The position numbers and the translations under genes are program-made. This document shows, one piece after another, positions 6,915 to 64,000 of a DNA stretch of 64,000 nucleotides. Under the pieces are notes generated by a model. That model saw only the letters and a list, made by a program, of their open reading frames with translations, searched no databases and was not told the origin of the DNA. Numbering within the stretch: the stretch's first letter is position 1; the number at the start of each line of letters is the position of its first letter. Origin of the DNA: Chondrosia reniformis (taxonomy: Eukaryota > Porifera > Demospongiae > Chondrillida > Chondrillidae); assembly GCA_947172415.1 (NCBI GenBank), contig OX359195.1, forward strand, positions 6,361,501 through 6,425,500. The letters run 5' to 3'.

Positions 6915-6981
6915 TCATATAATCTCAGTAAATGTATATATTAATTGATTAAATTCTCAACTGACAACCCCTCCCCCCCAG

Positions 6982-7293
6982 GTGGGACAAGTTGTGTTTG
7001 AACCACTTTCAGAGATAATGGAAATTGGAGAACTGTACCATTATTCACCTCCGACCTTTGACCTCCAAGGTCCCTCCATCCCTCTCATAAATGAGATTGA
7101 AAGATTAAAGTCAGATATCCCTAGATGCATGTGTGTACAAGCTGACCACGCCTCCTAACTTCCCCTCCCCTACAGTTGCCCCGCCCACTGTATACCTCTG
7201 GAGGAATCAAGAAGAGGAGGCGGTTTCACTCCAGTACAAGCTTGTAGAAGACTACTGGAAGATGCCTACACCTGTCTACTATTTGACAGCTAG
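6982..7293 (+). pseudogene. Duplicated last two exons of the left-edge gene, decayed
   Basis: 6982-7109 and 7176-7293 repeat exons 491-618 and 684-801 almost exactly, with the same lengths, acceptors and terminal TAG. The donor after 7109 is gtcaga instead of gtaaga, so its efficiency is doubtful. No upstream exon accompanies it: the copied block starts within the preceding intron (422 corresponds to 6914). The copy is probably not expressed as a normal transcript and marks the duplication that carried array copies 3 and 4 or their ancestors. Confidence 0.8.
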
Positions 7294-7295
7294 TG

Positions 7296-7612
7296 CAGGT
7301 CATGTGACAACTATGATTGATCATGTGACAACTATATGATTGATCATGTGACAACTATATGATTGGTCATGTGACAATTATATGATTGGTCATGTGACAA
7401 CTATAGGATTGATCATGTGACAACTATATGATTGGTCATGTGACAACTATATGATTGGTCATGTGACAACTATAGGATTGATCATGTGACAACTGATCCT
7501 GTGACAACTATGATTGATCATGTGACAACAATATGATTGATCATGTGATAACTTTGATGGATCATGTGACAACTATGATCATGTGACAACTATGACTGAT
7601 CATGTGACAACT
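7296..7612. repeat. Minisatellite, ~20-23 bp unit, about 15 copies
   Basis: An expanded version of the array at 804-913, with units gatcatgtgacaactat plus atgattg or aggattg spacers. It directly follows the duplicated terminal exon and precedes copy 3 of the NHR-TRAF array. Confidence 0.9.
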
Positions 7613-7781
7613 ATATAGCTGCTGTGAACTATGTAAGAAAATATGTATTTACTGTACATGTAAGAAAGGAAGAAAGTTAAGAAATATCTAAGAAAGTTTT
7701 GCTACAAATACAAGTTGGTGTTTTAGTACTAATTACAGTACATACATACTATATACATCATAATAAAGTGATTCACATTAG

Positions 7782-9601
7782 TCATTTCTTCATAAGGCTA
7801 TCAACTTTAGCTTCCAACTTTAATACTCTATTCATTGTGAGTAAGAGATGTTGCTCCACTGAATCTTTCATGTGCTGTGACAAATTCTTACGTAGCATCT
7901 TCTCTTTGCAGCCAAAGGGCTCATACTGACATGGAACTTTCTCCTGAGGACAGATCTGTCGGTGAGAGGAGACATCTTTTCTGGGGATTTCCTTTTCACC
8001 ACACTTATTAGGACAATCTAAAGGAAACATGTGACACTTCTTCTTGTGATCTCCACTGATGCCTTCATAAGTAGATGAGATTTTGCAGAATTTACAAGTA
8101 GCTTCTCTCAAGGGACAATGGCTGGTGAGGTGGCATGAGAGAGAACATCTAGGAATCATTCTCTTACACCCGTTGGGACAGTTTAGCAACTGAAATTTGC
8201 ATCCATTCTCAGAACCTAGATGATGATCTAGATCTGACAACTCCATCCTCTCCCTACATCCACCTTCTACATTCCGACACATTACAAGAAGGTTGTTGAT
8301 GCGTTGTTGAGCATTGCGATCTACAAACAGATCAAATTTGGATTGAGATGTTGTAGTACTTCTGCAGGTGGGGCAGGTGTGTGATCTCTGCTTCCACTGC
8401 TGTACACAAGTTTCACAGTACAGTTTACCACAACATGTAGCCTGCATGGGACTGACAGCCAGTGCTTGACAGATACTACAAAACAGCCACTCTGGTGGAT
8501 TAGATGGAAAGCACACCTTTTTCTGCTTGTACTCACTTGTGTACAAAGGACCTGAAGGAAGAACATTCACATCAGTAAAAGGATATATCATTTACAATTA
8601 ATAAGAGACACATTAATTTTACTAAGTAAATCACTAGTTACACGGGCAGGACTTGTTATATGTATAGAATTACAGTTCACTTGATAACATAGGCAGAGAT
8701 CATACATGTATATACACATAGACCTTTTATCACTCACCATCTACTGCAATATAGTCTGTTCTGAGTGTACCATTCACAGTTGTAAAAGCCCAAATGGGTT
8801 GATCTGTTGGTAGCCCCTCCCATGCCACACCCAATTCCTTTCCATTCTTGTAAACATAAAACTTTCCATTTTCTTTAACAGAACAACCAAAAGTATCATC
8901 TCCTGTCACAAATAACTGCCACTTCATCTTCCTCTTCTCTCCATTGTGATATAAAGTGTTACCACTCATATACCAGTACTGCTTGTCATTCTTTACTTCA
9001 AACCAATCGTTTGGTATATATACATCAGGACTAACTGTAGTCACACCAATGATTGGACACTACAGACACAAATATCATGAAGATATTCACAACACTTGTA
9101 TACTACACTATTGCACAGAACACACTAAGAGATCGTCTCTCTATTAGAGGTGTGAGGTAATCCTTTTCCACACATGCCTCGCAGTTAGTTGTCATACTGT
9201 ACGCATGTATCACAGTTAACTAGTAGCTGGTTAGCAAGCTGGATAAAGGTATTAAGTGTGTTTTAATGAATACTAATAAGAACAGGTCGATTAACTAGTT
9301 AATAAGATAGTGTTGCGTGCTATTTGGATGTACTGAATTTACTAAAGACTTTGTTTTAACTTAATAGATCTCTCAATGCCGATGTCTAATATTGACTTAT
9401 CGAATGATACATGCTTACCAGTGATCCTGCTTCTTCATACTTTATTTGAAAGAGCTGGTCAAACAATGGGGCACTTGAAAAGACAAAATTATGATACCCT
9501 AACAAATCAATGATGGCACTTTCTCTGTCGGGACTGAGCTGTACATTAGTTCCACAACAAGTATGAAACTTTCCCTTGTAGTTAGCTACTCTAACGGCCA
9601 T
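7782..9601 (-). CDS. NHR-RING-zfTRAF-coiled-coil protein, copy 3 (intact)
   Basis: Exons 9419-9601, 8738-9059 and 7782-8551; 1275 nt, 424 aa, phases 0 and 1 as in copy 1. The architecture matches copy 1: split NHR, all-Cys RING (CSIC, CCGKLYC, CPTC) and TRAF zinc fingers. The C-terminal coiled coil is shorter, because about 35 codons present in copy 1 (SENTGL to SDLE) are missing in frame between VLKLE and AKVDSLMKK. Exon 1 is eight codons shorter than in copy 1, with different residues in the IIDLLGYHNFVFSS segment. That is NHR surface variation rather than damage. Likely a cytosolic E3 ligase or adaptor; role inferred from domains only. The shorter coiled coil could change oligomerisation. 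Confidence 0.85.
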
Positions 9602-10160
9602 CTTGAAAAGAAAAGTTGATATCGTAAAGTTACAGGAAAGTTGCAATATTAATATGCAATCATAAAGATATGAACCTCAAACTTGCAATTGGTGTCACCA
9701 TCCACAGGCATCCATAAAGGATGTAGGCCTACAATGAGATTTGCAAATGTTGATGTTTACTTTTAATCTTTCACCTAAGTATATTTTGTTAAAGATGTCA
9801 GTTCGTATGTTACAATTTAAGGAAGAAGCTAACACTGCACATTAGCACTCACAGGCTTCTGCAAAGTATATCCTACGAGTATATATTCTAAAGATCTATA
9901 TCGATAAATAATTTTCCCGAAGCTAGCTGGCGATAAGCCATGATTGATCATGTGACAACTATAGCTGTTGTACATAATTTGTGCAATTAAGTTCAAATTA
10001 TCTTCTTATAAAGGATAGACTATACAAGAAAATGTGTATTTACATGTAAGAAAGCAAAACAACTTGAGAAAAATCTAAGAAACTTTGCTATAATCACAAG
10101 TTTGTATATACTAACTACATACCACTTCACACTAGTGAACAAAAACATTATTTCATTTAG

Positions 10161-12094
10161 TCATTTCTTTGTGAGGCTATCAATCTTAGCTTCCAAATCA
10201 GAATATTTCATTTTAAGATCAGCTGTTTCTTCTAGCAATGTAGAAAGTTTAACTGTCAAACCAGTATTTTCAGACTCCAACTTAAATACTCTATTCATTG
10301 TGAGTAAGAGATGTTGTTCCACTGAATCTTTCATGTGCTGTGACAAATCCTTACGTAGCATCTTCTCTTTGCAGCCAAAGGGCTCATATTGACATGAAAC
10401 TTCCTCCAGAGGACAGACCTGTCGGTGAGAGGAGACATCTTTTCTGGGGATTTTCCTTTTCACCACACTTATTAGGACAATCTAAAGGAAGCATGGGACA
10501 CTTCTTCCAGTGATCTCCACTGATGTCTTCATAAGTAGATGAGATTTTGCAGAATTCACAAGTAGCTTCTCTCAAGGGACAATGGCTGGTGAGGTAGTGT
10601 GAGAGAGAACATCTAGGAATCATTCTCTTACATCCATTGGGACAGTTTAGCAACTGAAATTTGCATCCTTTTTCAGAGTTTAGATGATGATCTAGATCTG
10701 ACAACTCCATCCTCTCCCTACATCCACCTTCTACATTCTGACACAACACAAGGAGGTTGTTGATGTGTTGTTGAGCATTGCGATCTACAAACAGATCAAA
10801 TTTTGATTGAGATGTTGCAGTACTTCTGCAGGTGGGACAGGTGTTTGATCTCTGCTTCCACTGCTGTACACAAGCTTCACAGTACAGTTTACCACAACAT
10901 GTAGCCTGCATAGGACTGACAGCCAGTGCTTGACAGATACTACAAAACAGCCACTCTGGTGGATTAGATGGAAAGTACACCTTTTTCTGCTTGTACTCAC
11001 TTGTGTACAAAGGACCTGAAGGAAGAACATTCACATCAGTAGAAAGGATATATCATTCACAATTAATAAGAGACACATTAATTTTACTAAGTAAATCGCT
11101 AGTTACACAAGCAGAACTTGTTAACGTTGGAATTACAGTTCACTTGATAACATCCACAGAGATCATACATGTATATACACATAAAGTATTGACTTTTTAT
11201 CACTCACCATCTACTGCAATGTAGTCTGTTCCGAGTGTACCATAATTCACATCTGCAAAAGCCCAAATAGGTTGATCTGTCGGTAGCCCTTCCCATGCCA
11301 CACCCAATTCCTCTCCATTCTTGTAAACACATAACTTTCCATCTTCTTTTACAGAACAACCAAAAGTATCACCTCCTGTCACACTTAACTGCCACTTCAT
11401 CTTCCTCTTCTCTCTGTTGTAATATGAAGTGTTACCACGCATACACCAGTACTGCTTATCATTCTTTACTTCATGCCATGTGTTTGGTATATATACATCA
11501 GGACTTACTGTAGTCACACCAATGATTGGATGCTACAGACACAGATATCATGAAGATATTCACAACACTTGTATACTACACTATTGCACAGAACACACTA
11601 AGAGATCGTCTCTCTATTAGAGGTGTGAGGTAATCCTTTTCCACACATGCCTCGCAGTTAGTTGTCATACTGTACGCACGTATCACAGTTAACTAGTAGC
11701 TGGTTAGCAAGCTGGATAAAGGTATTAAGTGTGTTTTAATGAATACTAATAAGAACAGGTCGATTAACTATTTAATAAGATAGTGTTGCGTGCTATTTGG
11801 ATGCACTGAATTTACCAAAGACTTTGTTTTAACTTAACAGATCTCTCAATGTCGATATCTCGGAATCTCATCGAATGTCTAATATTGACTTATCGAATGA
11901 TGCATGCTTACCAGTGATCTTGCTCCTTCAAACTTAATTTGAAAGAGCTGGCCAAACAATGGGGCACTTGAAAAGGCTAAATTATGAAACGCTAAGAAAT
12001 CCCCACATACACTTTCTCTGTCGGGACTGAGCTCTACATCAGCTCCACAACAAGTATGAAACTTTCCCTTGTAGTTAGCTACTCTAACGGCCAT
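10161..12094 (-). pseudogene. NHR-RING-zfTRAF copy 4, single-base frameshift
   Basis: Exons 11912-12094, 11208-11532 and 10161-11015. NHR and RING are intact. In exon 3 an extra T in the run near 10451-10455 (tttt where other copies have ttt) shifts the frame within the zinc fingers, at GEKE. The product then ends at 10384 after a short unrelated tail, losing the last zinc finger and the coiled coil. The original frame stays open from there to 10161, with normal coiled-coil sequence, so the lesion is very recent, polymorphic or a sequencing error. The sequence upstream of the ATG does not match the other copies, so the array boundary is at about 12095. It shares a 143 bp divergent promoter region with PSMD14. 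Confidence 0.75.
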
Positions 12095-12237
12095 CTCGTA
12101 GTGTAACCATAGATATACGACTCCTATGTTGTAACAGTTGTACTGTTGCAATATTAATAGAAGTCGAGCTGGCTACATGAGACTAGCATAGGCGTCCCGT
12201 TCCCGATCCAAAATTGTGCTGAGTGTAAATTTGAGAA
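12095..12237. promoter_or_regulatory. Divergent promoter region between NHR-TRAF copy 4 and PSMD14
   Basis: Only 143 bp separate two start codons on opposite strands. No TATA element is obvious on the PSMD14 side. Assignment as a bidirectional promoter is inference from spacing. Confidence 0.45.
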
Positions 12238-47657: not shown

Positions 47658-48972
47658 ATGGTATTGTGGAATATCTTTGTACAAAGGTCTACTGGCAAAA
47701 CCTTTCCAATAGTGAAACAAAAGAGTACATTTGAAGTACGTACGTACGTACACTAACAGAACAATGCAGTGATTATGTGTACTGAACATAAGTATTACTG
47801 TAGTAGGTACGTATTAAGTATACATACGTATATAAGTGGTGCAAGATGTAGATCAGGTATATATGTACGTAATTAATGGCAGAAGGACAGATACAGTTTA
47901 TAGATGGTCTATATCCAGTAGCTTTAATATTCAAATTTATCTTCTTACTTTCTTTCAGATGATGTAGCTACGTACGTACATATGTATAATTTTTAATACT
48001 ACATTTACGCATGTAAATATGTACGTATACATATGATTATCGTCCTGTTTTCTGCAGAAACTGTCTGTAGATAGATTTAAAGATCTCGTCAGAGAGCACA
48101 CGGGCATTGCCAATGAGGATCAAAGATTGATTCTCTGCGGAAAAACCCTGAAGAGCGGGAAAATGCTAAAGGATTATTATGATGATGGGTTTGAGGATGA
48201 AGCAACGCTCTTCCTCGTCCACAGGTTACCTGGGGGAGGAGCTTCAAACACAACGGTGCAATACCAACTGTTGAAGTGCATGATATGTTTAGAAGACAAA
48301 GTGACCAAGAGAATGCCGTGCAGCCACTCAGTCTGTCCCGAATGCATCTTCAAGCACTCTTGGAATGAGGCCCATGAAAAGAGGAATATAGAGATTGTCT
48401 GTCCGGAACGTGGTTGTGGTAATGTGTGGAAGATGAGTTCCATCCTTGAGCAGGGAAACATTCAAGGTGAACAGAGACAAAAGCTTCAATCTCAACTGTC
48501 AAAAAATGTTATCCTTAAGGACATAGAACTGAATGAATGCCCGGGATGTGGAAGCTATTGCGAAAGAAAGAATAAATCTCGAAATCGTGTTAGTTGTTCT
48601 GAATGTAGCAGTAAAGGAACCACTACTGACTTCTGCTGGAACTGCCTGCATACATGGAAAAATCAAGATAGTACAATTGACTGTGGGAATAAGGCATGCC
48701 ATAATGAACTAGCTCTCAAAGCCCTCAATGAGGCTCCCCTAATAAGCATTCAGTACCAACTGTCCAGTCTAAAGTGTCCTTCCAAAAGAGCATGTGTCAC
48801 CTGTGGCAATGTTATTGAGCTGAAAGAGGGATGCAAGCACATGCTATGCAAATGCCAGACTGAGTTCTGCTTCATCTGTCTGGGAAGGAGAAAGGGGGAC
48901 ATTTGGCCCTGTGGGTCATACAAAACAGAATGTACCCTTGCACCAGTCCAGAGAATCATTCCACACAACTAG
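47658..48972 (+). CDS. Ubiquitin-like domain RBR E3 ligase, gene i
   Basis: Two exons, 47658-47735 and 48058-48972, phase 0; 330 aa. Exon 1 (MVLWNIFVQRSTGKT...) is the first beta hairpin of a ubiquitin fold, completed by exon 2 up to VHRLPGGG. RING1 follows (C100 in CMICLED, CSHSVCPECI, to C146), then the IBR/BRcat (~187-240: CPGCGSYC, FCWNC, CGNKAC) and the RING2/Rcat (~272-300: RACVTCGNVIELKEGCKHM). The family's catalytic Cys, which carries ubiquitin as a thioester, is C285 in GCKHM. The Rcat has CKHMLCKC where paralogues have C-x2-C, one residue fewer. The order UBL-RBR recalls Parkin and HOIL-1, but there is no RING0 or NZF. The first exon is too short to appear in simple frame scans; it was found by matching paralogues. 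Confidence 0.88.
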
Positions 48973-50169
48973 CTACAGCTCACAACAAAACACAATCTTA
49001 CTTTTTCACCTAAGGGGCTTAATTGAAGAGACAAATTCACTAACCTACAACACTTAGGTCATGAATACTAAATAAATTTGTAAGCTGTTTTTCATTTCAG
49101 TTCACCAGTAAACACATTCCAGTATTGCTTGAAACTATTCAAATAGTAACTAAACTTACTCACTTGTGTTCATATCCACATATTGCACGCAATGGTTAAA
49201 GGGGTTTTCCGTGAAAAAATCCCTTCAACCAACATTGCCTAATCTAATAATTACACCCCTGTTTTTGAATTCTCTCTGATAAAACAATTAACAAGGACAA
49301 CCATACATATTAAACACTTATATTGTGTCACAGTAAGAAGGATAATAATAATTACTATACATAGCCATGGTAACATTCATCACACAGAGATAGACCTACT
49401 AAGTTAGCTTATTAGTTTCACAATTATGGTGGATGATTGCACAATAACTTGTGGTAGAAATAGATAGCAAGTTCAAATTAACAATTTTTGGGCATTTATG
49501 GTAAGAGAATCACAGTACAGCCCTTTTATACAGAATCATCATATAGGTGGTGAGAGGATACACTTCTGGGAAATGGAGCCTTACTTGGAACTTTGAATAA
49601 TAATCAACAACCACAAGTATTTCTAATTGAATTATCTAATTGAAATTCCACCTAACACATCAACAGTATACTTAACAGGAGGTAAGTAGTACATTCTACT
49701 AATATATACCAACTTTCAAGTTCTAGCTTCCATATACCTATGCATGTAAAAGTAGCTACAAACTTATATTTAGTATTTAATTTCTGGCTTGATATCCTCA
49801 AAGTTACTCAACTATAGTCTTAAATAGGGCTGGCTGGCTGTACCAAATGGATACTTCAGTAAATATTCCCAACTACCTTACTGAGACTTGTAAGTTTGCT
49901 TACATACATGTACAAGTCACATGACAAGTCACATGACAGGGTTGTTTGTTGTTGAGAATAAATTAAATTACCTCAGCAATGGAATATCAAGTATGGGTTT
50001 ATAGTAGGGAAATTCCCTCAACTTTCACTGTAAAACAGTCCTCTCTGAACTGGAAGGGTTTTCTTAGAATTTTTCATTCTAAATATAGTTACCAGTATGA
50101 CATCATCAGCTCTATATATTACAGCGTATTAGTGAGTATGAGATCACTTGAAGCAGAAGCAGAAGAAAG
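48973..50169. other. Intergenic region between UBL-RBR genes i and ii
   Basis: 1.2 kb of AT-rich sequence with no supported exon. A TATA-like ctatatatta lies at about 50111-50120, roughly 50 bp before gene ii's start. A short direct duplication (aagtcacatgac, twice) is at 49914-49937. Confidence 0.5.
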
Positions 50170-51669
50170 ATGGGAATGTGGAATATTTCGGTAAAGAAGC
50201 CAGAAGGGGGCACACTAAACTTTGTAAAGGAGAAGGAACAGTTTGAGGTAAGCTGTCCACATAGTTTACACAAGCCAGTGACAGGTATAATATTTAATAC
50301 ACAGTACACTGGTTGGTAAAGTGTACAAATCTGGTAAATGCACAGTTCAGTCAGAAAATTTGGACTATACAGACGTACAAAATATTCTAAAATATATAGC
50401 ATCTGTTCTGTCTCTATACAAGTAATGTGCTTCTCTTGAAAACAGAGGTAGGCTATCAAAGTGTACAAATCTTGAAAACAGAGATCACACCAACTACTTA
50501 CTACGTGCTACATGTCATATACGTATACAATGACAACCAGTATTACTACCAATAACCAGACTCTAATAGTAATATGCCTAGGCCAGTGGAGAAGAAGAGA
50601 AGGAGAAGGAGAAAATTCTTGCATCCTCATCCTAAGCTTTCACTAGGTTTAGTCTATATGCCTTTACTTGTAGTATATTAAAAAATGGTGTGTTAGATTA
50701 TTCGTCAGTACACACATCCTTTAATAATGAGTGTTACTCTGTTTTCATTAGAGAATGACAGTTTTACAATTCAAAGAGCTTGTCAAAGAGAGGCTGGGGA
50801 TTCCCCCAGATGACCAGAGACTGATTCACGCTGGAAAGGAAATGAGAGAAGGCCTACTCTCTGACTACGAGGATCTGGGCGATGGGTCTACTATATTCCT
50901 TGTGCTGAGGCTCCTTGGAGGTACACACGCCCCCTTCTCTCCTGACAGACCACGGTCACTCCCCTCTGGAGTGCCACAAGCTCTGGAGGACTGTATATTG
51001 TACTGTGGAGAGACTATCTGCGCCAGGATGCCATGCGGTCATGCCATCTGCCCCTCCTGCCTCCTAGCACACGCTTGGAATGCAATAGGGTCAAGTGCTC
51101 ACACCGAAGTCCACTGTCCTCAGCCAGGATGCACTCAGGAGTGGAGACCGGCCATCATCAAGAAGTACGGAGATGCTACTACTGAAGAGAAGAGGGCACT
51201 AGACGACAAGCTCAGCCTCAACGTACTACACAAGGACAAAAATGTCCACACTTGCCCCGGATGTGGTTACTTTTGCGAGCGGCGGGACCAGACCACGAAT
51301 CGGGTCCGTTGCCAGGTGTGCCAGAAGGGGGACTTCTGCTGGCAGTGTAACAAGCCATGGAAGAGCAGCAACCAAGAAGAATGTGGAAACTATGAGTGCG
51401 GTACAAATCAGCGACTCCAGCTCCTCCAAGAAGCGCCTCTGAAGAGTATCGGCTATCTCTCAGACTCGCACAAGGTCCCTTCTCTACGTGCTTGTCCCAA
51501 ATGTTCTGCGCTCATAGAACACAGAGACGCTTGTAAGCATATCCAATGCACTCGCTGCAAGGCAGACTTCTGTTTCGTCTGCCTGAATATAAAGTTGTCT
51601 AATGGATCGTGGCCATGTGGCTCCCATGTTACAGCTTGTGCAGTTGCTCCGCGGCAGATAATAGCATGA
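50170..51669 (+). CDS. Ubiquitin-like domain RBR E3 ligase, gene ii
   Basis: Exons 50170-50247 and 50752-51669, phase 0; 331 aa. Exon 1 reads MGMWNISVKKPEGGTLNFVK; the second Met, two codons on, could also start. The UBL ends VLRLLGG. RING1 has C107-x3-C111 (CILYC) instead of C-x2-C, so its first zinc pair is irregular. BRcat (CPGCGYFCERRDQ, FCWQC, CGNYEC) and Rcat (RACPKCSALIEHRDACKHI) are complete, with catalytic C287. This gene is visibly GC-richer than its four paralogues, most of the difference being at third codon positions. Expected to act as a RING/HECT-hybrid E3; substrates unknown. A SINE-like remnant is in the intron at 50578. Confidence 0.88.
50578..50700 (+). mobile_element. SINE-like element in intron of UBL-RBR gene ii
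   Basis: A-box-like taggccagtgg followed by a GA-rich stretch, then cttgcatcctcatcctaagc and a decayed B box (ggtttagtcta). Ends ggtgtgttagattattc, a tail shared with the fragment near 355-370. Confidence 0.55.
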
Positions 51670-51895
51670 TCAAAGAGAAGTGATGAGATTACTAATTACA
51701 GTATATATCATCTGTTACTCATACTTATCTACTAAAGCCATTATATTATACATTTTTATTAATTGGTTTGTCCTAAAACTTATTAATAAGGCTCTACAAC
51801 ATACTTACCTCAAAACTTTCCATATAAACGGGTCGCCATATTTTTTACTAATTTCTCCAGCCACGCCTTCCTTTTATTGCTATAATTTCCCCATT

Positions 51896-53338
51896 ATGTG
51901 GCGATCGTTCCTAGTCTGCAATCCATCCATCTACCTCAAGCGTCTAGGCTCATCCGTGGCGCGTAGTCCTCTCGCTCAGTTGAGGAAGCGGACGAATTTA
52001 CCCTTGAACAAGTGCAAGGAAGCACTTGTGAACTGCGATAATGATGTAGTTACTGCAGAAAAATGGCTGTTAGAGAAAGCTGAGAAGGAAGGATGGCTTA
52101 AAGCAGAGAAGTTGTCAGGTAGGGACGCGACACAAGGATACGTTGGAGTGATGGTGCAGCGAAATAGAGCAGTTTTGACAGAAGTAAGTTTGCAGCATTT
52201 CTACCGAACATTTACCAGAAATTTGATTATACAAGCGGTGGAGGGCTTTGTATGCAAAAGCCATCCTAATGTTTGGCCCTGAATAATTTTTACATGCAGT
52301 TATATGTGCTAAATGTTATAGACTCCGCAGTCACACATCCAGACTGAATCAGTAGGGCTCTAATTCTAGTAGGGGCTCTAATTCCAGTAGGGGCTCTAAT
52401 TCCAGTAGGGGCTCTAATTCCAGTAGGGGTTCTAATTCCAGTAGGGTTCTAATTCCAGTAGGGGTTCTAATTCCAGTAGGGGTTCTAATTCCAGTAGGGT
52501 TCTAATTCCAGTAGGGCTCTAATTCCAGTAGGGGTTCTAATTCCAGTAGGGTTCTAATTCCAGTAGGGCTCTAATTCCAGCAAATTGGTTTGCCCTAACC
52601 TTCCCCCTCTAAGCTAGAAAGTTCTCTGTTACCAGTGGATTAGGTTTTGTTTCAGACATGTAATGAGACGTTATATCCCGCATACATATATAATTGTACT
52701 GTTTGGTTGCATAGGTTAATTGTGAAACTGATTTTGTTGCCAGAACAGATGTTTTTAAGGATTTAACAAGAGTCATAACTGCTGAGCTACATCAAATGGC
52801 TAATGTCAGTGATTCTACATTCATGAAAGTTTTTCAAGAGGCTCCGGGTGATCTGGGCCCACTGACTGACTATAAAACTGTGTCTGATGCTATCATCAAA
52901 GCAATTGGTCAGTTATCTGAGAATATCAAACTGTCTCATGCATGTGTGCTGGAAGCTAAGGAAGGTTCCATTTCAACTTTCATTTACAACAACCTACTTC
53001 AAACCTCTCATTTTGGAATTGGAACATATGCAGCTGTATTACACTTGAAAGCTGAATCAGAATTGGTCAGTGATAATGATATTCATAGTCTAGGTAAGAA
53101 GCTTGCTCAACATGTGGTTGGACTAAACCCAAAGTCCATTGACACTACAGAAGTGACATCTTCAAGTGAAGTGCTCTTGAAGCAGCCATTTTTACTGGAT
53201 AACTCGCTATTGGTGGGTGAACTGTTGGAGAGGGAGAGAGTTAAGGTGACCAGCTTTGTGTCTTACAGACTTGGAGAAGTGACTGCCGTAGTTGATGAGG
53301 ATGAATGTCAGTTTGTATCTTATAATCACTCAACTTGA
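51896..53338 (+). CDS. TSFM: Mitochondrial translation elongation factor Ts
   Basis: Two exons, 51896-52183 and 52715-53338, phase 0; 303 aa. It acts as nucleotide exchange factor for EF-Tu in mitochondria. The N-terminus (MWRSFLVCNPSIYLKRLGSS) is a plausible mitochondrial presequence. The UBA-like EF-Ts domain follows (LRKRTNLPLNKCKEALVNCD, AEKWL), then the hallmark NCETDFVARTDVF across the exon junction. The C-terminal dimerisation-type region ends CQFVSYNHST. The single intron holds an 18 bp minisatellite. The gene sits between UBL-RBR genes ii and iii, all on the plus strand. A ~240 bp internal piece is duplicated at 57258. Confidence 0.95.
52350..52580. repeat. ~17-18 bp minisatellite in TSFM intron, about 13 copies
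   Basis: Units ctaattccagtaggggct or ctaattccagtagggtt, in alternating variants. Length polymorphism is likely. Confidence 0.95.
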
Positions 53339-53615
53339 CAAACTATATATTACACCTGATTTTCATTAAATATTGAAATAGTTGATGGTTGAAGTTGAAT
53401 TTAATGTCAATATGTCAATCTTGTTTCTGTGATGTTGACTTTGAATAAATAGTATTGGGCAGGTTTATACATGGGCTTACTTAAGTTGTGGTTTGTGGAG
53501 GCGCTGTATGCGTTAGATATATAATTGGAAGCTGGTAATGGTGAATTCCCTAGGAAAATACCACTTGCTGAGTTGGCACAACACTTTCATCAACACTCGT
53601 GACCGCATAATGTGC

Positions 53616-53625
53616 TATATATAAA
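53616..53625 (+). promoter_or_regulatory. TATA box of UBL-RBR gene iii
   Basis: tatatataaa, about 40 bp upstream of the start codon at 53662. Confidence 0.6.
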
Positions 53626-53661
53626 TAAAACGGCTCGAAAGCCTCAGCAAGCGATAGGAAG

Positions 53662-55141
53662 ATGACTACAAAGTGGAACGTCGGTATTAAGTCCCACAAT
53701 GGAAAGATGTACAATGTAGTGGAGACGGCAGTATATTTCAAGGTTCGCAGTGAATAATTCCATTGATTATCTAGTGAATAATACAATGTCATAGCCAGTG
53801 CCTGCATGCACGACCCAGCTAATATAACAAGTCAGTTTACTGTTAGACCAAACTAGACCTATACGATGCGTCCATACAAGTATGAAATATCCAGTTACAG
53901 AATGGATCGATACAGTCCCAGTAGTATAGCCACGTCGTGATACTATTGATAGTGGAGAAGGTAAGCGTAAAGCTTGGACAGATGGTCTCCTTTCGTTGTT
54001 ATGGTGACAGAAAAGGATAGTAAATTGCCCCTTCTTACAAGCACTCATTTATAACGTCTCACTCTGTATGTTTTTTACCCCTATTGAATTGATCGCGATA
54101 GGTCACAAATGTGAAAATCGATAACTTAACCAATGTGTAACCTCTGATAGGAACAAGCTATATTTCCAATCCTTAATTCCTATTTGAATATCTACAGAAA
54201 TTGACAGTCACAGAAATGAGGTATGTTGTGAAGGAAAGGACAGGAATACCACAGGATGAACAACTTCTTGTGTGTTCTGGAAAACAGCTGGAAGATGATA
54301 AAAAGATGATTGATTATGATTTTGGTGATGGGAGTACGATATTTCTGTGTTTAAGGCTCAAAGGAGGTTCTGAAGTTGGGGAAACTCTTGACACTTCTAA
54401 ACCACGCCCCTTTCCTAAGGGTGCTCCAAAGCACAAGGATAATTGTCCCATATGTTTGGATGAAGGCAATTCTTTGAAAATGTCGTGCGGGCATCCAGTG
54501 TGTCCATCATGCTTGATTGACTATGCATGGAATGAAGTAAGCTCCAGACATAGAGATAAGTTGACCTGTCCTACTTGTAAAAGTGAATGGTCTCTCCAAG
54601 ACTTGAAGCACTATGGAGTAGCTGACAAAGAGGAAATCATGCTATTGGGTGACTGCCTCTCAAAAAATTATATCCACAACAACCCTGATATCGCTAACTG
54701 TCCTGGGTGTGATGCTATGGTTGCTAGGATGAAGGATTCTGACAATCGTGTAACATGCAGAGAATGTAGAGCCAAGGGGAAGAAGGATTTTTGCTGGCAT
54801 TGCTTGAAACCATGGAAAGATGATAAATCCACAGAGAAGTGTGGCAATGACAGGTGCTACAGGCAAGAGATGCTTAACATACTTCAGAAAGCACCCTTAA
54901 CTACATTTTTCAATTTTTGCCTCCTGACATTACTGCACCTAGCAAACGTGCTTTCCCAGAATGTGGTTCTCTGATCAAGCTTGATGGAGGATGCAAACAC
55001 ATGATGTGTAAGGACTGTCAAACTGAGTTTTGTTTCCTCTGTCTCCGTAAGAAGGTGGGAGGAAAGTGGGACTGTGGGTTATACGATACAGTATGTGCTG
55101 TGGCTCCTGTCCAGACCAAGATTCCTCACAAGATGTGCTGA
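53662..55141 (+). pseudogene. Ubiquitin-like domain RBR E3 ligase, gene iii (frameshifted)
   Basis: Exon 1 is 53662-53742 (27 codons, MTTKWNVGIKSHNGKMYNVV); exon 2 runs from 54198. UBL, a complete RING1 (CPICLDEGNSL, CGHPVCPSC, CPTC) and BRcat are open to 54974. A missing T in the run near 54913-54917 then shifts frame. The Rcat continues in another frame from LPPDITAPSKRA to the stop at 55141. In addition, the first Rcat zinc ligand is Phe (RAFPECG instead of RACxxCG), although the catalytic GGCKHM motif survives. The Phe change suggests relaxed selection independent of the indel. Truncated at 54974 it would be a UBL-RING1-IBR protein without the catalytic ring; whether it is expressed cannot be told. 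Confidence 0.75.
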
Positions 55142-55525
55142 CTAGCTAGTAAATATAAATCAACATTGCATGCAATTGCTCACTGAAACTTGAGGATTTT
55201 CATTCTCTCAAATAATTTACATCTTGTCTGGCCTGTATAACTTTCATTCAGTGTATCAATTATATTATGTAACATGTTGATATCATGCATATTTAATTTA
55301 AGGTTGGAATTAAATTAATACACAAACTTTGGGGCTATAAGGTTATTGTCATATATAATACACTGCATGTAATAAAAATGAAATGCTGATGGTTAATGAA
55401 TGAAAACAAAACTTCACTTCAAATAGAGATAGCCATCATAAATGTAGAACATTACTGACTAAATTAAAGAAAAAGAGTTGACATGTTATGTATATATGCG
55501 TGTTTATGTTTCAGAAGTATAATGT
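55142..55525. other. Convergent spacer between UBL-RBR gene iii and the collagen/fibrinogen-like gene
   Basis: 384 bp, AT-rich, with an AATAAA-like aataaaaatg near 55371. Nothing else seen. Confidence 0.5.
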
Positions 55526-56650
55526 TTACATAACATATATCTCCAGAATATCTATGTATGTGTCCTCATTGTCAGTTCCTTCATTAGCACAATTGCGCAC
55601 TTCAATATCATCATCTACTTCCTGTGGAAAGGCTCTGCAGAACCAAGGCATACCAGATTGGGCACAACAGTTGTTACCAGCTCCACAACCTTCACCATCC
55701 CAAAGAGGTTCATCATAGAAGTGATATTCATATGGTCCAGTATTACCAGATTCACAATAATAGTGATTACCCACAAAGGATGGTGGAGATGGACCAGGGA
55801 ACTTGGCACAGGGACAGTTATTATAGCCACTATGATCTACATCATCAGATAAACCAACAGCATAAGTCCAGAGATGCTTGCGAGGGGAACCATGTGTGAT
55901 GGAAATACCATCAACATAATATGAATCAATATCTATAGAACCAGCAAATCCATCATGACTGGCATATTGATATCCCTTGACCTGTCCACAGACCTTATTG
56001 TAGCTGATACCATGAGTAGAGAAGGTCTTTGAAGAACAGCCACCTGTTGCTATTGATGCCCTTCCACACAACCTCTTGGGGGAGGTGACCAATCTAAAGG
56101 GGGAGGGGCACTCTGCTCCTGGTTGACTCATGCTGATGTAGGCCACTCTCATCCATCCACCCTTCACTCCACAATGCCATGCCTCCATGTCACAGTAGAC
56201 CTGATAAATACGAACACTTTCCTCATCTCCAGTAGTCAACCAGTACAGTCCATTGGTAGTCTCACTGTTGCACTTGTAAATCTCACCACACGACTTGGTA
56301 GCTTGATCTGAAGTGGATCCAAGACCAGTACAAGGTTGAGCAATAGATCTCATCTTCTCTTCAGTAAAGTTCCTGATTGCAGCTTCAATGATATCACTCA
56401 AGTCTCCTTCAATGTCTTTCTTCAGATCTCTACTATCAGCAAAAGACAGTGAACAAGTCCCAGGAGATCCTGGCAAGCCATCCCTTCCATCACGACCAGG
56501 AGGACCTTGGACAATACGACATCCACCAACAGTGCCTGATGTTTCCATGGTAACATTGTCAGTATCAGGTTGAGGGGCTCTTATAGAAGGCTTGGCTGAA
56601 GCACCAACAAGGAAGACCACCAGAACAATGATACATACAGTGAATTTCAT
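55526..56650 (-). CDS. Secreted short-collagen plus fibrinogen-like protein
   Basis: Single exon, 374 aa. Residues 1-19 are a signal peptide (MKFTVCIIVLVVFLVGASA). Residues 49-64 form five Gly-X-Y triplets (GPPGRDGRDGLPGSPG), far too few for a stable triple helix alone. From ~118 a Cys-rich domain starts like a fibrinogen-related domain (SCGEIYKCNSETTNGLYWL, YQVYCDMEAW, GGWMRVAYISM). It continues with GCSSKTFSTHGISYNKVCG, YYVDGISITHGSPRKHLW and NCCAQSGMPWFCRAFPQEVD. NFTEEK is a potential N-glycosylation site. Expected to be extracellular, perhaps a pattern- or carbohydrate-binding molecule by analogy with ficolin-like proteins; that is inference. A TATA element lies about 50 bp upstream. A near-identical C-terminus is at 63542. 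Confidence 0.85.
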   Translation of the reverse strand: MKFTVCIIVLVVFLVGASAKPSIRAPQPDTDNVTMETSGTVGGCRIVQGPPGRDGRDGLPGSPGTCSLSFADSRDLKKDIEGDLSDIIEAAIRNFTEEKMRSIAQPCTGLGSTSDQATKSCGEIYKCNSETTNGLYWLTTGDEESVRIYQVYCDMEAWHCGVKGGWMRVAYISMSQPGAECPSPFRLVTSPKRLCGRASIATGGCSSKTFSTHGISYNKVCGQVKGYQYASHDGFAGSIDIDSYYVDGISITHGSPRKHLWTYAVGLSDDVDHSGYNNCPCAKFPGPSPPSFVGNHYYCESGNTGPYEYHFYDEPLWDGEGCGAGNNCCAQSGMPWFCRAFPQEVDDDIEVRNCANEGTDNEDTYIDILEIYVM

Positions 56651-56701
56651 TTCTTCTTACACAATTTCTATATAGAGATTTTAGACTGTTTCTGTGCTTG
56701 T

Positions 56702-56711
56702 GTTTTTATAC
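56702..56711 (-). promoter_or_regulatory. TATA box of the collagen/fibrinogen-like gene
   Basis: On the minus strand ggtataaaaa, about 52-61 bp upstream of the ATG at 56650. Confidence 0.6.
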
Positions 56712-56976
56712 CTTATTTTCAGAACTACGTATATTTTGTTATTGTTTACAGTACTATCAATACACAACCTCAGGCCCTACCTACCTGCATGGTGGAATGA
56801 ACTTTATTGTCAGTTGATTTAGTTACTAATAAGTACACTTCTAGTTCTAATAAACAGGTCCCCTAGTTGACATTATATACTAATAAGGTAAGTAGCTACA
56901 TTAGTAGTTATGCATGGGTCCACTGCAATATTCATGATTGCCTCCCAGTCATCCAAGTCTGTGTTTGGGCTGTGTT

Positions 56977-57026
56977 CTGTGTTTGGGCGCACCATTCCTA
57001 CTTCAGCTTAGTGCGCCCCAACACAG
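56977..57026. repeat. Hairpin with 16 bp arms
   Basis: ctgtgtttgggcgcac and gtgcgccccaacacag are inverted copies with one mismatch, around an 18 nt loop. It marks the left end of the dispersed repeat that follows. Confidence 0.85.
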
Positions 57027-57185
57027 AAGTGTATGGTTAAGTTACTTAAATTTCAGTATACATGCAACCTCTGTATGATTAGCCTTATCATATAATCACT
57101 GTCTTGTTTCGATACTTTTTGCAGATGTATTAGTGAACACTGTCATTCCTACTTCTAACATCATTTTTGTAAATGTTTTTTATTT
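57001..57185 (+). repeat. Dispersed non-coding repeat
   Basis: Shares blocks with 57715-57880 and 38219-38400 (tggttaag, ttagccttat, tcactgtcttg, cctacttctaac-tcattt). Its right end (acactgtcattcctacttct, then aacatcatttttgtaaatg) also matches the reverse complement of 1145-1200 and 3720-3775. Probably a non-autonomous transposon family. Confidence 0.6.
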
Positions 57186-57257
57186 ACTTTATATGATAGT
57201 GAGATTATAAAACACTTTAATATCATTCATAAATAGGATGTGTTTGTGGCATTTGGA

Positions 57258-57496
57258 GATCTGGGCCCCCTGACTGACTATAAAACTGTGTCTGATGCTA
57301 TCATCAAAGCAATTGGTCAGTTATCTGAGAATATCAAACTGTCTCATGCATGTGTGCTGGAAGCTAAGGAAGGTTCCATTTCAACTTTCATTTACAACAA
57401 TCTACTTCAAACCTCTCATACTGGAATTGGAACATATGCAGCTGTATTACACTTGAAAGCTGAATCAGAATTAGTCAGTGATAATGATATTCATTG
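57258..57496 (+). pseudogene. TSFM exon 2 fragment
   Basis: Nearly identical to 52851-53086: gatctgggccc-ctgactgact through gataatgatattcat. It encodes about 80 internal EF-Ts residues, then stops. Both ends break inside exon 2, so it is a partial DNA duplication rather than an intact retrocopy. It sits directly after the dispersed repeat at 57001. Confidence 0.95.
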
Positions 57497-57714
57497 CAGA
57501 GGATAAACTGGAGAGAACATTGTTGTGGCAAATGTGGTTCAGTAGTGGCTATATAGAAAATCAATTATCCTGGGGTTTGATTTCCCTATAGTGTTACTGT
57601 TATATCTTTTGTATTTCTATCTTGCAATATGTACGGAGTTGGTCTAATCTTTATTCACAAATAACGCAACAATTCTATGCTCAGGTACATTGTCCCACCT
57701 TCAGCTGTGATATA

Positions 57715-57880
57715 TCTATATATGCCTAAACAAAGAAGTGGCAAAGTCAGTATAATACCACTTCCATATGGTTAAGCCTTATTACATGAGCACTTTTTTG
57801 GCATGTTTTGTTACTTTTTCCAGTTATGCACTGTTGCAAATGCTGTCATCCCTACTTCTAACTTCATTTCTGAAATACTT
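57715..57880 (+). repeat. Dispersed non-coding repeat, second copy
   Basis: Contains ggttaagccttattacatga, catccctacttctaacttca and flanking motifs of the family at 57001. It ends about 90 bp before the stop of UBL-RBR gene iv. Confidence 0.55.
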
Positions 57881-57973
57881 TAATTTAATATGTTATATGG
57901 TAAACAAATCTAAATTTGCAGCTAACATTTAGAAGTCAAAATATTAAACTTCGGAATCCCTAATTTTATTGTA

Positions 57974-59552
57974 TTAGGTATTGTTCCTTCTAGGTATTTT
58001 CAGCTGAACTGGAGCTGGTGAACATTCCGAGTTGAATAGTCCACACTGCCAACTTCCTTCTGTTCGTTTTCTAAGGCAGATGAAACAGAATTCTGTCTTG
58101 CACTCAATGCATTTCATATGCTTGCATTGTCCACCATGTTCAATAATAATTCCACAGGTAACACAGGCACGTTTTGATGGAGCTTTAATATTTGGTGGAA
58201 GATAGTCAAAATGAATAAGGGGAGCAGCTTTTAACATCTCAACTAAACTGGCATCATTGCAGGCTGCATTTCCACACTCCTTGGTACTGCTTTCATTTTT
58301 CCATTTACGGAGGCAATGCCAACAAAAATTAGAAGATGCTCCCTTCTTTGCACACACAAAGCAATGGACATTGTTGTTAGAAGTATCACTTCGCTCACAG
58401 TAGCTCTGACATCCAGGACATTCTTTTATGTCATTGCTGCTTATAATGAAATTCTTTGATAGCCCCTGTTGTAGCAACTTCATCTCTTCATCTGAAGCAC
58501 TTCCATATTGCTGTACGATGCCAAGAGGCCATTCTTCAGAACAAATGCAACAGCAAATTGCTGTCTTGTGGTTACTACTGACTTCAGACCAAGCATAATT
58601 CATAAGGCAAGCAGGACAAAAAGGATGTGAGCATGGCATCTGCATAGATTCTCCCTTCTCAAAGTTAATAGTGCATTCCTCATCATGGCTGGGGGCGTTT
58701 TGTGGTCTATATCGCTTGACGTTTTCATGGAAAGGGCGAGATTCTGTTAATCCACCTCCTGGTAGGCGGAGCACAAGAAATATGGTAGAGTTGTTACCAA
58801 AGCCTGAATAATTCACCAATTGCTTTCCATCTTCAAATTGCTTGCCCCCAAATATTAATCGCTGCTTATCGCATGGGATTCCAAGACGTTCTTCAGCTAA
58901 CTTCTTAAAGGCTTCAACCTTCATATCCTACATATTATGGTAAAGAGAATATTTAAATTTTAATTATTATGCATAGACTAAATGCCATCTTTACAAGTGT
59001 AAGGGTTTATAGAAGTATAATTTGCGGGCACCTAGATAAAATTGCCTTTCGTTATTAAAGGTTTGTAGTTTTCCGGGAATCTCTACATACATATTACAGA
59101 TTAGTCTCGCGTAGTATTTCGCCTCCATATTTTCTTGATGACGTCACACGGTCGACGACAGATGTCAAAATAATGCAGGAAAGTTTAAAAGAACTACCGC
59201 GGCCGAGAGATCCTTTCTAGTGATTACGAAAATAAGAGGTCTGCCAAATTAGACTCGCCCAAAAAAAGACTGTTAAAAATGACAATGGCCCAAACCATGA
59301 CAGTCATTATTTTAAAAGCTAGAGTGACAAATATTAGATCTAGTTTGCAGCTCGTCAAATATGTCAATAGGCTGCATGCTTACAAGCTAACTAATGCATC
59401 TTATATACTTGACGTTAGCTCCTATTAATACATACTATATACCTTTATGCACGAGCTTGACATTAGCTACATACCTGAAATACGCTTGCTGGCTTTACAA
59501 AATTAACAGTTTTGTCATTGGCAGTTTTAACAAAAACATTCCAATCTCCCAT
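57974..59552 (-). CDS. Ubiquitin-like domain RBR E3 ligase, gene iv
   Basis: Exons 59475-59552 and 57974-58927, phase 0; 343 aa. It is the only family member on the minus strand. Exon 1 is MGDWNVFVKTANDKTVNFVK; the UBL ends LRLPGGG. RING1 keeps the C(S)H-xx-C-xx-C core (CSHPFCPAC) but its first pair is CTINF, lacking the second Cys. BRcat (CPGCQSYCERS, FCWHC, CGNAAC) and Rcat (RACVTCGIIIEHGGQCKHM) are complete, with catalytic C294. The linker between UBL and RING1 is longer than in its paralogues (about 13 extra residues, rich in Arg, Pro and Asn). Likely an active RBR with altered E2 recruitment; inference. Confidence 0.87.
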
Positions 59553-59605
59553 AGTAATTGCAGTTAAGTGAAGTAAATCAGACGAAAAATAAGTCCAAAC
59601 CAGCA

Positions 59606-59616
59606 ATTATATATAC
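59606..59616 (-). promoter_or_regulatory. TATA box of UBL-RBR gene iv
   Basis: tatatataatt on the minus strand, about 54-64 bp upstream of the ATG at 59552. Confidence 0.55.
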
Positions 59617-60021
59617 GAATGAAATATCCTTATTTGTATGTGACAAATATAGGTATTTTCTCATAGAAAAAGTCCCTATGTTTCCAAATTAAAAACTGCA
59701 TGGGAACTGGTTTATATATATCTTTGCATTATTGATGCCATTCAATGATGTATATATAGCCACAGTCTAGGTTGATTATCTCCTGGAAAAAGAGAACAAG
59801 GATGTTAAGAAGAGGCTGCATGTAAGGAGATCATTCGCATGCATTATTATGTAGTCTATCATACAGAATCCGTTAGGGCATGTAGTTTAATATTATACGT
59901 GGGGGAGGGGGTGGATTTACATATGCTTTACTAACAAATGATGCAAAGGTACTTCCCATTGGAAAGTACCTCAACTATATATAGTAAATCAATAATCACA
60001 TCATGATCATGATCACCCTGG

Positions 60022-60028
60022 TATAAAT
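60022..60028 (+). promoter_or_regulatory. TATA box of UBL-RBR gene v
   Basis: tataaat, about 50 bp before the ATG at 60079. A short upstream ATG frame (60036, eight codons) precedes the main start. Confidence 0.6.
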
Positions 60029-60078
60029 TGAGTCCATGCATTTCGCCTGCCAATTGCAAGGCTAACCAAACAGCAATC

Positions 60079-62216
60079 ATGAGCATTTGGAATATATTTG
60101 TGAAGAGTCATGATGGTAAAACTATTACCATTGCTGAAGCAGAAAAAAAGTTTTCTGTAAGTGTATGCATATATATATCTACGTTACATATGTCGCTATA
60201 CCATCTGCAAGTATCAAAAGTCAAGTCATGAAGCCAGTTAGGAATGATTTCTTCTTGAATCGTTCCCAAGCTTTGAGCAGAAGGTATAATACTGTGAAGA
60301 TAGTCGGACATTCAGTTTACCTAACATAAGCAGTAACAATTTGCGTAGAGAATGAGAAGTAGTTCCGTTCTACGATAACTCTTTCTTTGAGATTTACATT
60401 TTACAATTTTACACTTGTGCTAGACTATTTTCTGCGCCCCTATTTGCAGTTCATGTTTACCGTTACGTTGTCCAGACATATCTGCAAAGTCGCTGACTAA
60501 TTCTAGATAAATTGTACTAAATATACTGCAAAAATGGATTCTACTGATTCTATTTTAAAATGGACCTCGGGAGGCCTTCACAAATAACAGAAAGCACTCA
60601 TGAGTCTTTTTGTAACATTACTTCAGTCAGCACTGTATATATGTCAGCACAAATAGAATCTGATATGGATCCGGAGTACATTATATTGTGCAGAATGTAT
60701 AATTATCCGATTACCCCTAGGTCTCTAATACAAGCTTGTCTCCAATAGAAGCCCACCTTTATGAGTTATCAAAAAATAGAAGCCCAGTCCCCAATATAAG
60801 CCCATGGCCACTGACACACTACTAAATTACTTATGGTATTCATACTTATCAAACATGCTGCTCTCTATAGTTTATGTTGAAATTGTCCCAATAAAGTTGA
60901 TTTATCAATATGAATTGAAGGATTGAAAAAAAGCCTAGTCTCCTATGCAAACCCATGCAGTCTCCAATAAAAGTCCAGGTTCAGAGGGGTTTGAAAAATA
61001 CAAGCCCCGGGCTTATAATACAGTATGTACGTACATATCCTATGAAAAATTAATCTAAAACACTGTTTTACCATCTGTTAAATAATATGGTTGACATGCA
61101 TATGAGCGAGGTTAGACACTATTTCCTAGGCTTATTAATTTGAAAAGCCTATCTTTGTATATTATGAACTCAAGGGATACAATTTTCATATCTGATCGAA
61201 TCTATACAAGTTAAATTTCTTATTTTCACTGAATGTATATGGAATATGTACGTAATATGTTATAAAAATCAAATAATATACTGTACTTGCCTTAATTCCA
61301 GATAATGACTGTGCTTGAATTCAAAAGTCATGTCAAGGAAAGGCTCAGAATACCACCAGATGAGCAACGTCTCATATTTGCTGGAAAGCAACTGGAAGAT
61401 GAAAAAGAATTGTCCTACTATAAGGGCCTTAAAAATAGAGCCACACTATTTCTTGTTTTGAGGCTACCAGGAGGAGCAGATAGACCAAACGAGGCCCTGC
61501 CAAAGTCTTTAGAGGACTGCATGATTCATTTTGATAAAGACGAATCCCTAGAGATGCCTTGTGGGCATTCAATTTGCTCACCCTGTCTTATGAATTATGT
61601 ATGGTCTGAGCTAGGTGGCAACAAGTCTGAATTCCTTTGCCCTTTACGTCAGAGTGAATGGACCATAGACGTTATAGAGAGGTATGGAAATGCATCTAGT
61701 GAAGAGATGGAGCTGATACAAGAAAGCTTGTCCGAGAATGCTATCAGAAATGATTCTTCAGTTTCTGAATGCCCTGGCTGTCACAACTACATTGAACGTA
61801 TTGATGAAGACAAAAACAGAGTAAGGTGTCGCATATGTGCCAAAGCAGGTAGAACACCAGAGTTCTGCTGGCATTGTTTTGAAAAGTGGAACAATCCTAA
61901 AAGTGACACAGAATGTGGAAATGCTGATTGCAATGTTGGTACCTTTCTTACAATACTCCGTGAAGCTCCTAAAAAGACAATGATGGGAATATCAAATCTA
62001 CAAGTTCCATCCAAACGCGCTTGTCCAGGATGTGGGATTGTCATTGAACACACAAAAGCTTGTAAGCACATGAGTTGTTCAAGCTGCAAGGTATCATTTT
62101 GCTTCATTTGTCTTCGCAAAAAGAGTGATGGCAGCTCAATGTGTGGTGATTACAACACTAAATGTTCACTAGCACCAGTGCAGAAAATCATTCCAAAAGC
62201 AAACAAGAAAAAGTGA
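60079..62216 (+). CDS. Ubiquitin-like domain RBR E3 ligase, gene v
   Basis: Exons 60079-60156 and 61302-62216, phase 0; 330 aa. The UBL is the most ubiquitin-like of the set ([11 protein letters not shown] in exon 1; [20 protein letters not shown] and VLRLPGG in exon 2). RING1 is strongly degenerate: the first pair is CMIHF and a later pair CPLRQ, so at least two zinc ligands are missing, while CGHSICSPC remains. BRcat (~183-236) and Rcat (~267-296: [19 protein letters not shown]) are intact, with catalytic C280. The tail is Lys-rich (KANKKK). The 1.1 kb intron carries a decayed repeat around 60690-61020 (gcccagtccccaatataagc, caagccccgggcttataata). Confidence 0.88.
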
Positions 62217-63541: not shown

Positions 63542-64000
63542 CTATTTAACATAGATTTCAAGTATCTCAATATATGTGTCTTCGTCACTAATTCCTTGAT
63601 TAGCACAATTGCGCACTTCAATATCATCATCTACTTCCTGTGGAAGAGCTCTACAGAACCAAGGCATACCAGATTGGGCACAACAGTTGTTACCAGCTCC
63701 ACAACCTTCACCATCCCAAAGAGGATCATCATAGAACTGAAATTCACATGGTCCAGTATTTCCAGATTCGCAATAATAGTGATTACCCACAAAGGATGGT
63801 GGAGATGGACCAGGGAACTTGGCACAGGGACAGTTATTACCACCGTTAAGATCATAATCATCAGAATGACCAACAGCATAAGTCCAGAGATGCTTGCGAG
63901 GGGAACCATGTGTGATGGAAATACCATCAACATAATATGTATTGATATCTCTAGGACCTTCAAATTCATCATGAGTGGCATATTGATATCCCCTGACCTG
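63542..64000 (-). CDS. Second collagen/fibrinogen-like secreted protein, C-terminal part
   Basis: Open frame from the right edge to a stop at 63542. It covers the last ~152 residues and is almost identical to 55526-56650: RGYQYATHDEF, YYVDGISITHGSPRKHLWTY, NNCPCAKFPGPSPPSFVG, ESGNTGPCEFQFYDDPLWDG, NNCCAQSGMPWFCRALPQEV, and a terminal EILEIYVK. Differences cluster at a few sites (HSDDYDLNGG against LSDDVDHSGY). The N-terminal signal and collagen part lie outside the window. Two copies flanking UBL-RBR genes iv and v show that this gene was also duplicated locally. Confidence 0.85.
   Translation of the reverse strand, partial: QVRGYQYATHDEFEGPRDINTYYVDGISITHGSPRKHLWTYAVGHSDDYDLNGGNNCPCAKFPGPSPPSFVGNHYYCESGNTGPCEFQFYDDPLWDGEGCGAGNNCCAQSGMPWFCRALPQEVDDDIEVRNCANQGISDEDTYIEILEIYVK

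Follow-up and report, generated by a model that had tools for sequence, protein, structure and literature searches.

The window analysed here is a 64,000-nucleotide stretch of the genome of the sponge Chondrosia reniformis (C7:6361501-6425500; positions given without a contig name are positions in the window). At 47658-62216 it contains five linked two-exon genes, named A-E below, each encoding a ubiquitin fold followed by a RING1-IBR-RING2 (RBR) module. The published assembly of this species, odChoReni1.1, is described as 117.37 Mb in 14 chromosomes plus the mitochondrion, with a scaffold N50 of 8.46 Mb (PMC12181767); the genome that we searched comprises 117,379,552 bases on 15 contigs. The initial annotation of the window had proposed a local multicopy cluster of genes with one common design. 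The cluster is there, and all five genes have this design: exon 1 has 26-27 codons, a phase-0 GT-AG intron splits the ubiquitin fold, and exon 2 encodes the remainder of the ubiquitin-like domain (UBL) and the RBR module. The two exons of each gene are predicted to be spliced together.

In gene A (plus strand), exon 1 (47658..47735, 26 codons) encodes the first hairpin of the ubiquitin fold and is followed by a 322-bp GT...AG phase-0 intron. Exon 2 (48058..48972) encodes the UBL remainder (48058-48237, ending with HRLPGG), a linker of 13 residues and RING1-IBR-RING2 with the catalytic cysteine codon at 48832-48834. Gene B (plus strand) consists of exon 1 at 50170..50247 (26 codons), a 504-bp intron and exon 2 at 50752..51669, with the UBL remainder at 50752-50922 (LRLLGG), a 23-residue linker and the catalytic cysteine codon of the RBR at 51532-51534. 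Gene D is on the minus strand: exon 1 (59475..59552, 26 codons) and a 547-bp intron precede exon 2 (57974..58927), in which the UBL remainder occupies 58927-58754 (LRLPGG), the linker has 26 residues, and the catalytic cysteine codon of the RBR is at 58124-58126. Gene E (plus strand) has an intron of 1145 bp between exon 1 (60079..60156, 26 codons) and exon 2 (61302..62216), with the UBL remainder at 61302-61475 (LRLPGG), a 14-residue linker and an RBR whose catalytic cysteine codon is at 62061-62063.

These four genes are intact and encode proteins of 330 (A), 331 (B), 343 (D) and 330 (E) residues. Gene C (plus strand) is broken. Its exon 1 (53662..53742, 27 codons) is followed by an intron beginning with GTTCGC, and the first piece of exon 2 (54198..54908) encodes the UBL remainder (54198-54368, LRLKGG), a 25-residue linker, RING1 and IBR, after which the frame is lost. 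The RING2 piece (54911..55138) lies in a different frame; the CKHM codons are present (cysteine codon 54992-54994), and the first RING2 cysteine, a zinc ligand, is replaced by phenylalanine. The proportion of synonymous differences (pS) in the 5' part of gene C is 0.78-0.87, as against 0.38-0.46 for nonsynonymous ones (pN), so that the gene was probably under constraint during most of its history. Across the UBL-RBR copies pS is saturated and pN is low, as under purifying selection; this rules out chance open reading frames (ORFs) for A-E.

The statement of the initial annotation that the catalytic cysteine is kept in all five genes holds for A, B, D and E, which retain CKHM or CKHI with a histidine two residues past the cysteine, and overlooks that gene C is broken. 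The same four proteins score above the Pfam cut-off for IBR. With RING1, IBR and RING2 in a row, the catalytic RING2 cysteine and the zinc ligands, they are candidate RBR ligases, and thioester chemistry on the RING2 cysteine may be expected. RING1 is less regular: the second cysteine is shifted in gene B (CILYC) and absent in gene D, whereas in gene E the second ligand is histidine and the last cysteine is missing. A scan of the four intact UBL-RBR proteins against NCBIfam gave no matches.

The UBLs of A-E are closer to the sponge's own ubiquitin (39-55% identity) than to the UBL of human Parkin (24-32%). When exon 2 of gene E was compared with PDB, the best 60 of 422 sequences (E<=1) were ubiquitins or ubiquitin-derived or ubiquitin-fused chains. 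All five UBLs end with x-R-L-x-G-G, aligned to LRLRGG of ubiquitin. In the structure predicted for gene A exon 2 (five window sequences; mean predicted local distance difference test score, pLDDT, 68.8; predicted template modelling score, pTM, 0.41), the UBL is ubiquitin-shaped and residues 1-60 overlay residues 20-76 of ubiquitin. Therefore the glycine pair corresponds to positions 75-76, and residues 1-19 must come from exon 1. The 50 VIA-align rows cover this UBL part (residues 1-60) and are thus uninformative about the RBR part. In the fused genes the diglycine is followed by G, T, S, G or A, and in none by proline; such P1' residues would permit cleavage past the diglycine. The linker from the diglycine to the first cysteine of RING1 (13-26 residues) is variable, contains no cysteine, and in gene A is modelled at pLDDT below 50.

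A genome search with gene E (24 matches) led to a second cluster at C3:5,730,000-5,747,000. It contains four single-frame genes encoding RING1-IBR and then a protein kinase domain, without RING2, and two genes for free UBLs, U1 and U2, that adjoin the kinase genes on the same strand. U1 (L033, exons 5265-5357 and 4545-4730) ends with VRLKGG and a stop codon, exactly at the diglycine. U2 (L033, exons 3755-3847 and 2793-2990) ends with QVMPGGSLSK, that is, the diglycine and SLSK. The Pfam ubiquitin score is above the cut-off for U1 and below it for U2 (21.1 vs 25.4). In the alignment the intron of U1 and U2 occupies the column of the A-E intron. Four further ubiquitin loci were considered: in L047 and L048 the split precedes GIPPDQQ, and the arrays on C12 and C2 are unsplit across repeats.

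The diglycine at positions 75-76 is kept in all seven UBLs of the family (A-E, U1, U2), although they share just 26-54% identity, and its glycine codons differ at synonymous sites only. Lys48 is likewise present in all seven and Arg72 in six, U2 having valine. The seven domains thus combine a predicted beta-grasp fold with a C-terminal diglycine, as in modifier-type UBLs; in the fused genes this pair is internal. The opposite case is a diverged polyubiquitin-like array of five repeats on C2 (L049 1144-2352, C2:10040144-10041352, minus strand), where the body of the repeats is near ubiquitin and the four junctions have PRRRR or LRRRR in place of LRLRGG. This contrast is a single case noticed post hoc, and the array may be a pseudogene.

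A Pfam kinase domain was found in all three C3 kinase genes scanned, and all four retain the G-loop, VAVK, HRDLxxxN and D[FL]G motifs. The nearest PDB matches of one kinase domain (L033:7577-8458) are the kinases CTR1, WNK3/1 and IRAK4 (41 sequences, E<=1e-20). We call these genes RING1-IBR-kinases because of their similarity to A-E (E 5e-14 to 2e-24) and the common zinc-ligand pattern. Since they have no RING2, we read them as candidate kinases binding a ubiquitin-conjugating enzyme (E2) or a tag, not as ligases.

The two clusters belong to one family. In a tree of 11 rows a branch with support 98/99 separates the seven UBLs from the rest, and in a tree of 19 rows one with 96/100 does so for the nine RING1-IBR modules of both clusters; gene C enters the latter tree as a truncated piece and the kinase genes with RING1-IBR only. 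A genome search with one RING1-IBR gave nine matches, all of them family members, and searches with U1 (14 matches) and U2 (10 matches) at E<=1 added none. These three queries and the one with gene E thus revealed no genome-wide expansion past nine RING1-IBR genes and seven UBLs. At the same threshold C escaped the queries with U1 and U2, and B the query with U2, so that nine and seven are minimum numbers, and all genome match counts are lower bounds. Pattern searches gave 35 matches in viral contigs and 58 in prokaryote genome contigs, none of them confirmed. The Pfam ubiquitin profile has 33 matches across the genome. One of them (C6:7069440-7069604, plus strand, in an open frame of 161 aa) begins at profile position 19, like the exon of gene D, and is possibly split at the family intron site. 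The eS30 gene is a different locus, with its matches on C12.

Parkin and HOIL-1 also have a UBL in front of an RBR, and the initial annotation had assigned the cluster to a Parkin/HOIL-1-like lineage, noting that it lacks RING0 and NZF. The latter observation stands. The linkers leave no space for RING0 or NZF; in Pfam scans at E<=1 none of the five proteins showed NZF or another zinc finger between the UBL and RING1, and RING0 (PF17976) has only two matches in the genome, both on C9 (291,221-291,632). Beside these the human Parkin RBR matches four stretches (287,918-289,990, 40-56% identity), and a UBL-like stretch adjoins the RING0 matches, as read by eye. No C7 or C3 family member is among the 12 matches of this query (E<=1). 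Parkin is thus a separate gene, and the assignment to its lineage is not supported: the UBL is nearest to ubiquitin and has the diglycine, and the best PDB sequence matches of the gene D RBR, the only one searched alone, are ARIH1 and ARIH2 (E about 1e-4; Parkin 0.15). We therefore rejected an expansion of Parkin or HOIL-1.

Trees, a kind of check suggested by the initial annotation, do yield a separate group, with the five UBL-RBRs clustering at 100/99 within the nine-member branch, and are compatible with several deeper placements of it. In the approximately unbiased (AU) test Parkin (p = 0.11), HOIL-1 (0.078) and ARIH1 (0.50) are all retained as the sister of the family, whose branch is 5.5 changes per column long; long branches were also flagged for human HOIP, HOIL-1 and Parkin. 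Foldseek with the gene A model lists Parkin chains first, followed by ARIH, RNF216, HOIP and HOIL-1, with TM-scores of about 0.2-0.35. The UBL-RBR/kinase family is separate from the known RBRs. Some 100 kb away from the window, C7 carries a pair of almost identical RBR ORFs (L035 2412-3197 and 6016-6762, minus strand); we take them to be RNF144-like, and in the tree they fall outside the family.

Each known system resembles the sponge genes in part. Parkin likewise starts with a UBL and continues to an RBR whose RING2 carries a catalytic cysteine; however, it has RING0, and its human UBL has no diglycine, whereas the sponge UBL is nearer to ubiquitin and keeps it. HOIL-1 (RBCK1; UBL-NZF-RBR) also begins with a UBL, but contains NZF and has DW after the catalytic cysteine where the sponge genes have KH. 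ARIH1 and ARIH2 share the Cys-x-His active site. However, the sponge chains have no Ariadne domain, ending 9-16 residues past the last cysteine, and the IBR of the sponge family begins with CPGC and ends with CGNxxC. In UBA52, RPS27A and FUBI-eS30 (FAU) a ubiquitin-fold protein with a diglycine is fused in frame to an unrelated C-terminal protein, and deubiquitinases cut these fusions after the diglycine. The sponge partner is an RBR ligase module instead, and such a cut would be a prediction for it. U1, ending at the diglycine, and U2, with its SLSK tail, are reminiscent of NEDD8, ISG15 and SUMO precursors; they are 25-36% identical to ubiquitin and NEDD8.

The surroundings of the cluster contain what are, by their similarity, traces of segmental duplication. 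An EF-Ts (TSFM) gene lies between B and C (52715-53335, plus strand), and a 240-bp piece, 97.5% identical to it, lies between C and D (57255-57494, plus strand). Two collagen-like genes on the minus strand (55529-56656 and 63545-64000, the second running past the window edge) share 90% identity across 455 bp, and a fibrillar-collagen C-terminal match in the first falls short of the Pfam cut-off. The UBL-RBR copies are far more diverged than these duplicates and thus probably older. At about 52350-52570, between two EF-Ts coding stretches, there are imperfect repeats of a unit of about 20 bases (ctctaattccagtagggg). A second local multicopy RING-type family occupies 1254-12172 (minus strand) of the same 64 kb: tandem ORFs with RING and zf-TRAF, above the cut-off in all three scanned, are interspersed with similar shorter ORFs, one of which has a Neuralized match and SPRY below the cut-off.

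The TATAWA motif occurs 40 to 100 bases upstream of the ATG in all five UBL-RBR genes and U1, not in U2 (six of seven, as against 12.7% of random window positions). Of two kinase genes considered, kin2 has one site (-79) and kin1 none. The 150 bp preceding B, U2 and kin2 (3/11) each contain the sequence TGACATCA. Both motifs were sought after the sequences had been seen and are leads only; common inducible promoters of the UBL genes are possible.

We tentatively favour, as plausible if short of probable, the explanation that the C7 genes encode modifier-type UBLs fused to their own RBR ligase and cut after the diglycine. Each intact gene would produce one chain UBL-GlyGly-linker-RING1-IBR-RING2. 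By analogy with the ubiquitin-ribosomal protein and FUBI-eS30 fusions, deubiquitinases of the cell would cut it after the diglycine, releasing the UBL, with a tail that can be activated, together with an equal amount of the RBR ligase. The ligase could then load ubiquitin or the released UBL on its RING2 cysteine and hand it to targets. On C3 both ingredients would exist unfused, as two free UBL genes and four RING1-IBR-kinase genes, whose products may bind E2 or the tag. Cleavage, conjugation and the role of the kinases are what we infer from the gene structures. The free sisters U1 and U2 indicate that members of this UBL lineage also occur on their own, with the tail of a modifier. Rather unlikely is a more specific scheme, a modifier family of the sponge's own, with two free and up to five released UBLs, in which the precursor carries the conjugating RBR and the RING1-IBR-kinases read the tag or couple it to phosphorylation.

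Several observations weigh against a released modifier. The irregular RING1 of B, D and E makes E2 binding doubtful in these three. The C3 kinase genes lack RING2, leaving the free UBLs without an obvious RBR ligase of their own; these two are the main facts against a simple story of a tag with its own ligase. None of the three kinase genes scanned has a Pfam IBR match, and zf-RING_UBOX is below the cut-off in two of them. Position 74 of the UBL, arginine in ubiquitin, is proline, leucine or lysine in A-E. The diglycine could be a mark of descent from a modifier instead of one of present use, though synonymous divergence is saturated. Finally, fusion on C7 and separation on C3 also fit a UBL that regulates the ligase solely in cis.

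This last explanation is a serious possibility. The UBL would stay attached and dock on RING1 or IBR. There it would either keep E2~ubiquitin out, as happens in Parkin, or occupy the allosteric ubiquitin site and so activate the ligase; the diglycine would be a remnant or belong to the docking surface. The Parkin/HOIL-1 layout, the chains grouped by Foldseek and the ubiquitin-like shape of the gene A UBL all agree with it. However, docking needs no diglycine, as the human Parkin UBL illustrates, yet the pair is present in all five deeply diverged copies and at the termini of the free siblings; the gene A model, at its pTM, cannot position the UBL. As the free sisters exist and the diglycine is kept despite saturated synonymous divergence, release and use as a modifier are favoured, narrowly, over a cis-acting UBL.

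Integral UBLs often serve as docking handles, and the UBL may be one: an ordinary RBR would use it to bind, for example, UBA-domain proteins or the proteasome, and the cluster would be a neutral tandem expansion. The duplication traces nearby and the broken gene C are in line with this. We consider it improbable, as purifying selection is strong, and it would leave unexplained why the diglycine is retained, why free siblings exist and why two chromosomes carry matched RING1-IBR groups. A divergent Parkin or HOIL-1 sub-branch that lost RING0 or NZF, with which the domain order, the AU test and the top Foldseek matches are compatible, is very improbable given the ubiquitin-like UBL, the separate Parkin gene on C9, the human Parkin RBR query that matches no family member and the ARIH-like best matches of gene D.

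Teleosts probably have predicted proteins that combine a UBL with an RBR of this kind, which would lower the novelty of the family. In the literature searched we found no description of a UBL-diglycine-RBR or RING1-IBR-kinase family, although there may be one in Marin's 2009 paper on animal RBR proteins; no paper containing the LRLPGG motif; and none treating RBR, a ubiquitin-like domain and Amphimedon together.

The fusion of a UBL with a diglycine to an RBR, together with its free and kinase relatives, hints at a tagging system for which we found no description. If the C7 and C3 genes do form a modifier system, modifier, writer and kinase would evolve in it as linked gene clusters. If the UBL is released, a single gene would encode a tag and the enzyme attaching it in a fixed ratio, and the birth of new ubiquitin-like systems would become experimentally accessible.

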